Assembly (NCBI RefSeq): GCF_001634365.1
Contig: NZ_CP014578.1
Coordinates: 4,216,001 to 4,280,000, forward strand
Direction: 5' to 3'
Length of the DNA stretch: 64,000 bases
Source of the DNA: Paraburkholderia phytofirmans OLGA172
Lineage (GTDB): Bacteria; Pseudomonadota; Gammaproteobacteria; Burkholderiales; Burkholderiaceae
Every line of letters begins with the position of its first letter. The first letter of the stretch is position 1. The position numbers and the translations under genes were made by a program. Of this stretch, positions 54,467-54,669 are shown one piece after another. Below the pieces are notes generated by a model. It was not told the origin of the DNA and made no database searches. It worked only from the letters and a program-made list of their open reading frames with translations.

Positions 54467-54497
54467 ATAAAAAAACCCGCCGCTTTAACGGCGGGTC
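54467..54497 (-). terminator. Minus-strand intrinsic terminator without an upstream protein gene
   Basis: An 8-bp perfect stem (acccgccg at 54475-54482, cggcgggt at 54489-54496) with a 6-nt loop has a run of T only on the minus strand (ggcgggtttttttat). On the plus strand it is followed by caaacag, so it cannot stop engB transcription efficiently. No minus-strand protein gene lies to its right before dsbD at 55842. Confidence 0.8.
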
Positions 54498-54574
54498 AAA
54501 CAGCCTAATCGAAAAAACGACAGGCACCCGCTCAGGGAGGAGAAGCGGGGAGGTCAGCGCAGGGCGCCTTGCTC
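54467..54574 (-). ncRNA. Candidate small regulatory RNA convergent with engB
   Basis: On the minus strand a TATCAT -10-like box (54582-54587) would start a transcript near 54574 that ends at the orphan terminator, giving about 108 nt. The body carries C/U-rich anti-Shine-Dalgarno stretches: acctccccg near 54546-54554 and tctcctccct at 54534-54543. It is convergent with engB, like E. coli spf (Spot 42, about 109 nt) with yihA. No good -35 box is visible. Inference only; see findings. Confidence 0.4.
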
Positions 54575-54669
54575 GATCGGTATGATATACCATTGTCTCG
54601 AAAAGTTTCCGGGAGCGGAGGCAGGCGCTACTTGTCCACTCCATACATCCACGTTTCTTCGATTCGTTT

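Follow-up and report, generated by a model that had tools for sequence, protein, structure and literature searches.

Introduction

The closest described relative of the RNA analysed here is ncS04 of Burkholderia cenocepacia, a 105-nt transcript of chromosome 1 (292949..293053) that lies between BCAL0264 and BCAL0265 in the orientation <- -> <-, and whose start site was mapped by dRNA-seq and 3' end confirmed by RACE (PMC4603805, PMC5688073). Table 1 of PMC5688073 gives anti-hemB as its alternative name. The same two papers place ncS04 among the strongly expressed sRNAs of B. cenocepacia and report its co-purification with Hfq, citing Ramos et al. 2013 (PMC4603805, PMC5688073). No significant change in its level is given for the seven conditions of Table 2 of PMC5688073, a paper that also notes complements of ribosome-binding sites in unpaired regions of some sRNAs. 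Anti-hemB is also listed among predicted sRNAs of B. pseudomallei (PMC3521395).

Several other RNAs bear on the comparison by their location or their mode of action. The ErsA gene lies between polA and engB (PMC8575079); ErsA is described as an Hfq-assisted, sigma-22-dependent regulator and is tied to Spot 42 in a review (PMC8395346). sX13, reported to be Hfq-independent in action, was tied to Spot 42 and to alphar7 through the polA locus in a 2013 paper, which also raised the question whether polA loci elsewhere carry sRNAs too (PMC3771888). In Bordetella, S17 represses a target via a C/U-rich single-stranded site, as established with compensatory mutations (PMC11722255). In the portions of the open-access literature that were consulted, no paper was found linking anti-hemB to the polA/engB sRNAs.

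Identity and layout of the small RNA gene

The DNA analysed (“the window”) is the whole stretch of 64,000 nucleotides. Its engB-hemB gap measures 251 bases, from the engB stop at 54416-54418 to the hemB ATG at 54670. engB (yihA; 53765..54418, plus strand) is an ORF that scores 215 bits with NCBIfam TIGR03598 (YihA/YsxC, cut-off 124), and hemB (porphobilinogen synthase; 54670..55668, plus strand) is an ORF that scores 517 bits with NF006762 (cut-off 297). On the minus strand of the gap, Rfam family RF02837 (anti-hemB; curated cut-off 49.5 bits) matches 54467-54551 with a score of 83 bits. Across the whole window two Rfam matches exceed their cut-off, this one included, and the sole further match in the gap at E <= 1 is Hrs13, at 18.7 bits versus a cut-off of 52. 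As described for RF02837 anti-hemB, the match lies between engB and hemB on the opposite strand, so that engB is the convergent neighbour and hemB is divergent, upstream of the sRNA promoter.

We place the anti-hemB / ncS04 gene at 54467..54573 (minus strand), using the RF02837 match and alignment for its extent, and the -10 box together with the 105-nt B. cenocepacia transcript for its probable start. The window RNA and anti-hemB / ncS04 (RF02837) are alike in sequence, structure, strand, length and neighbours; nothing essential differs, except that hairpin P1 is missing from the 81-position Rfam model, which starts at P2. The minus-strand element is a real sRNA that is already catalogued as anti-hemB. 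Given the family match and the reported ncS04 transcript, it is not new, and the part worth following is the lineage link rather than the gene.

An earlier note on this DNA, made from its letters, had proposed an RNA of about 108 nt convergent with engB, located where Spot 42 and ErsA are encoded in other bacteria. The position was right and the length agrees with the 105 nt mapped for the B. cenocepacia counterpart. Its remark that there was no obvious sequence match was mistaken, as the match to RF02837 demonstrates. Overall its observation is confirmed and its interpretation partly supported; what it missed is the Rfam family RF02837, expressed as ncS04. A comparison of positions 54440-54620 with plasmid records gave no match. 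Elsewhere, the Rfam scan of the window placed a TPP riboswitch (RF00059, 65.8 bits) at 23465-23588 on the minus strand. An inverted repeat 3' of hemB (55716-55757), between an A-run and a T-run, resembles a bidirectional terminator by its sequence.

Predicted fold and terminator

The RNA from 54573 to 54467 has a folding energy of -44.9 kcal/mol (z -3.8), which none of 200 shuffles equalled. Four hairpins are predicted, all on the minus strand. P1 (GGCGC-CCU-GCGCU, 54568-54556) comes from the fold and lies outside the Rfam model. P2 (CCCGCU/AGCGGG, 54549-54527) and P3 (54525-54503, 92.5% of cells paired) are given by both the RF02837 structure and the fold. P4 (54496-54475) is followed by a U-tail, and the two together (54469..54496) form an intrinsic terminator and a likely Hfq site, as judged from the fold, the terminator scan and the reported Hfq co-purification of ncS04. 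The P2 loop, UCUCCUCCCUG (54533..54543), is anti-Shine-Dalgarno in sequence and is the presumed seed. Both C/U-rich stretches that had been singled out beforehand exist: tctcctccct at 54543-54534, and acctccccg at 54554-54546. The latter is half buried in the P2 stem, leaving only ACCUC free, and can therefore be at most a partial second site.

The minus-strand terminator predicted for the gap was recovered, as a stem at 54497-54474 with a T-run at 54475-54469. The scan gave two terminator-like sites for the gap, one of them lying inside the other, compared with 0.3 in shuffles. Since the element lies just 3' of engB, it might be read as a mere engB terminator or as spurious transcription without any role in trans. 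We regard this reading as very improbable and largely refuted by the ncS04 data: both terminator-like sites are on the minus strand, conservation of the loop and of P1 and P2 goes further than a terminator would need, and the ortholog is listed as strongly expressed and reportedly Hfq-bound (PMC4603805, PMC5688073).

Covariation within the family was assessed on 20 sequences, namely that of the window and 19 others selected visually among the family loci, using the structure of the window's own fold. The covariation score of the whole structure exceeded those of all 500 shuffles. In P1, 5/5 pairs showed changes on both sides, with 91.8% of cells paired. P2 was nearly invariant in this set, which is therefore uninformative on covariation there.

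Conservation and gene order

The earlier note had suggested a covariance search across relatives, and this search bore it out. RF02837 scored over cut-off in 241/299 genomes of the family and in 133/200 genomes of the order (the order sample overlaps the family sample in part), and loop and terminator were visible in most of 29 aligned family loci. Gene order was read at 57 family loci, 51 of which have a convergent engB 3' of the sRNA and, 5' of it, a hemB directed away; one has engB only, one hemB only and four neither. Among 49 order loci, some of which were picked for being second copies, 32 have both genes, seven engB only (six of these co-directional), three hemB only and seven neither. 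At eleven loci (L073, L079, L083, L084, L100, L106, L140, L146, L157, L164 and L187), the sRNA follows engB and shares its strand, an arrangement suggestive of an inversion of the sRNA gene.

Promoter region

The TATCAT box noted previously is present at 54582..54587 (minus strand), within the dyad GGTATATCATACC (54591-54579). Near the expected -35 position stands an AACTTT block (54602..54607, minus strand), a poor match to the sigma-70 consensus. A simple promoter scan of the gap found no sigma-70 pair, which confirms that the -35 is poor. Among the 29 family loci, TATATCATA/TATATGATA occurs upstream in 14, as does AACTTT (14/29), so that the exact promoter blocks are common to about half only; the exact dyad GGTATATCATACC is found in 7/29. 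The dyad (54579-54591, GGTAT-N3-ATACC) reads TATCAT on the minus strand and TATGAT on the plus strand. By its letters, it may be the site of an overlapping divergent pair, the sRNA promoter and the hemB promoter.

Related RNAs beside polA and engB

In a sample of 229 genomes of the class, RF02837 matched 78 at E <= 1e-5, 12 of them over cut-off. Two of the 78 belong to the window's order. The other 76 yield 77 places when tandem copies are taken as one, and every one of these places was read. polA and/or engB adjoin 62 of the 77 places (34 both, 16 engB only, 12 polA only); at the remaining 15, neither gene was present within about 1.5 kb. Note that RF02837 carries no positional information. 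The RNA is on the strand opposite to engB in 45 of 50 places having engB, and on the polA strand in 42 of 46 having polA. The prevailing arrangement, polA -> sRNA -> <- engB, is the polA, spf, yihA layout of E. coli. The nearest class RNA (L113) shares with the window RNA a block of 23 identical consecutive bases, which runs across P2. Tandem copies of the engB-linked RNA type were seen at L153 (four, in genome G662), L126, L118, L156, L208, L209 and L081, with pairs in several genomes other than G662.

HemB was looked for around the 77 places outside the order and gave no match, a result that bears on regulation in cis. The RNA could be a cis-antisense or interference element that acts on engB-hemB read-through RNA or on a hemB promoter overlapping its own, instead of on distant mRNAs. 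The plus-strand TATGAT of the shared dyad, and hence possible promoter overlap, would fit this, as would the presence of both genes around the sRNA in 51/57 family loci. Yet transcription of the RNA leads away from hemB, with no overlap of the hemB coding sequence, and the loop and stems of the RNA are conserved as in a trans-acting RNA. Outside the order it persists with polA as a neighbour at 46/77 places. Because the RNA is retained where hemB is no neighbour, we consider cis regulation of hemB unlikely and prefer action in trans.

Reverse search with a model of the class RNAs

Model R1 was built from 57 of the 62 polA/engB-linked class RNAs, leaving out five near-duplicates. Its training set excludes the window's order as well as any genome with an ErsA, sX13 or Spot 42 match over cut-off, but contains a few RNAs with sub-threshold matches to ErsA or sX13. 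The P2 stem is incomplete in R1, having been shifted by the MAFFT alignment. For a second model, R2, stems P2 and P4 were named by hand on 20 sequences chosen from the 57.

Against the window genome, R1 returned the window RNA as its best match (38.4 bits, E 4.1e-6; next 0.07). Against G653, which has a full ErsA match (RF01719, 121 bits), the best match was ErsA (E 6.2e-4; next 0.06). Two genomes, G504 and G656, have sX13; there it ranked second, the two E values being 1.7e-5 and 1.7e-4. The top match was read in G504, where it is L211 1501-1616(+), by reading a C/U-rich terminator RNA after the end of a phasin-like ORF. Because sX13 is outscored by other places, R1 is not fully specific.

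Below cut-off, the Rfam models themselves meet at some of these places. Each of the four G662 tandem copies matches both the anti-hemB and the sX13 models; the best sX13 score, 48.3, falls just short of the cut-off of 50, the remaining three are 28 to 30, and one copy scores 37.1 with ErsA. Eight genomes have only sub-threshold ErsA matches: four on the RF02837 place (G662, G556, G647, G547), three at polA-engB (G526, G635, G581) and one at neither (G702). For sX13, also with eight such genomes, two are on the RF02837 place (G662, G574), two by engB (G628, G564) and four at neither. Compared directly, RF02837 gave no match to the ErsA and sX13 genes at E <= 0.5, and RF01719 gave none in the gap at E <= 1 and none in the window-wide scan.

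Conservation of the loop extends to the class. Covariation was scored on 20 class sequences chosen from the 57 for alignable loops and therefore describes a selected set: 12 of 15 pairs in P2 and P4 together changed on both sides, a value reached by 0/500 shuffles, and in P2 alone 7/7 pairs did so. CCUCCC in the P2 loop is invariant in the 20 class sequences of set A2, and CUCCCU is nearly invariant in the 57 of set A1.

A survey that started from engB rather than from the RNA covered 30 loci, read from 49 found in 56 genomes. R1 matched at 14 of the 30 with E <= 2e-5, 13 of them convergent, and at 16 there was none. Eight of the 14 had served to train R1, and one more (L241) is almost identical to a member of that set.

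The 16 empty loci could be taken to mean that the likeness to the polA/engB RNAs is convergence among common types of C/U-rich hairpin and terminator. The 15/77 class places lacking polA and engB within about 1.5 kb point the same way, as do the weak matches from other C/U-rich families and the fact that the best R1 match in both sX13 genomes lies elsewhere than sX13. We rate convergence slightly below the cis reading, and improbable: 62/77 places found blind to position lie at polA/engB, where a rough estimate from genome size alone puts the chance expectation well under one, and the window RNA and L113 share their 23-base block.

Comparison with ErsA, sX13 and Spot 42

ErsA (RF01719, Pseudomon-1) resembles the window RNA in its polA-engB location, in being the best R1 match in G653, and in being Hfq-assisted. 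It differs in having three main predicted hairpins without the CCUCCC P2, in its sigma-22 dependence and in the lack of a direct RF02837 match. sX13 (RF02232) has four predicted hairpins with C-rich loops (the copy folded was L201), lies beside polA and is the second R1 match, whereas it has no direct RF02837 match, is Hfq-independent as reported, and in G504 lies some 70 kb from engB. The betaproteobacterial toxic sRNA RF02278 / ncS27 and Bordetella S17 share C/U-rich loops complementary to ribosome-binding sites, but belong to other loci; RF02278 had no match in the gap at E <= 1 and none over cut-off in the window.

Spot 42 (RF00021) shares the length and the place, polA -> spf -> <- yihA, convergent with engB/yihA. 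It differs in its predicted fold and shows no significant sequence or model match. The Spot 42 model gave no match in the window. Homology by sequence is unsupported: on L131, which has spf at 3900-4010, R1 gave 13.6 bits over 3900-4009 (E 0.14), and R2 gave 6.0 bits (E 8.6) on the same gene. Across the 229 class genomes, the Spot 42 model produced weak matches at E <= 0.1 at 14 places in 13 genomes, none over cut-off; one of the 14 is by polA/engB, on a G662 copy. The ErsA link is supported by the bridging model and by position; the Spot 42 link is positional only.

These genome comparisons indicate that the window RNA is the Burkholderia(ceae) branch of an old sRNA gene that many beta- and gammaproteobacteria keep next to engB/polA. 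We lean, with some reserve, towards a single ancestral engB/polA sRNA gene that gave rise to anti-hemB, ErsA, sX13, many unnamed RNAs in beta- and gammaproteobacteria and perhaps Spot 42. If so, Rfam families now filed separately, with no common clan, would be orthologous, having one hairpin plan in common and, in much of the lineage, a conserved CCUCCC loop. Anti-hemB, for which we found no assigned function in Burkholderia, is in this way placed at the locus of ErsA and sX13 and is probably of the same lineage as these RNAs, which have studied targets. The ancestry and shared function of the polA/engB RNAs become testable, and the question on polA loci raised in the 2013 sX13 paper (PMC3771888) receives a broad answer.

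Proposed mechanism and search for targets

We are fairly confident that the gene specifies an Hfq-dependent trans-acting RNA that is made from a sigma-70-type promoter, pairs with Shine-Dalgarno sequences through its P2 loop and represents the Burkholderiaceae form of the engB/polA sRNA gene. Family, predicted fold, conservation and place were computed here; transcription and Hfq binding are taken from the B. cenocepacia papers, and we infer the start site, the pairing mechanism and the targets. A promoter of sigma-70 type around 54582-54607 (minus strand) would produce an RNA of about 107 nt with four hairpins, ending at the P4 terminator, and the U-tail would recruit Hfq. The P2 loop UCUCCUCCCUG would then pair with the Shine-Dalgarno regions of several mRNAs made elsewhere, and this pairing would block ribosome binding and so lead to repression. 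The RNA is likely an Hfq-bound repressor acting in trans that masks Shine-Dalgarno sequences via UCUCCUCCCUG; we favour action in trans because the conserved loop is carried on a covarying stem, because Hfq binding is reported for the ortholog, and by analogy with S17.

The earlier note had suggested target prediction with the two C/U-rich stretches, and simple complement searches (a 15-mer, and AGGGAGGAG before ATG) gave no convincing target. The complement of the 15-mer loop region, with up to two mismatches, matched six times, one match being the gene itself, compared with five for the control. Among the five other matches is one located 3 bases ahead of the start codon (ATG) of a long ORF that we take to be group-II-intron-RT-like. 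The pattern AGGGAGGAG-N(3-11)-ATG occurred once (control 0), ahead of an ORF that is presumably ArsH-like.
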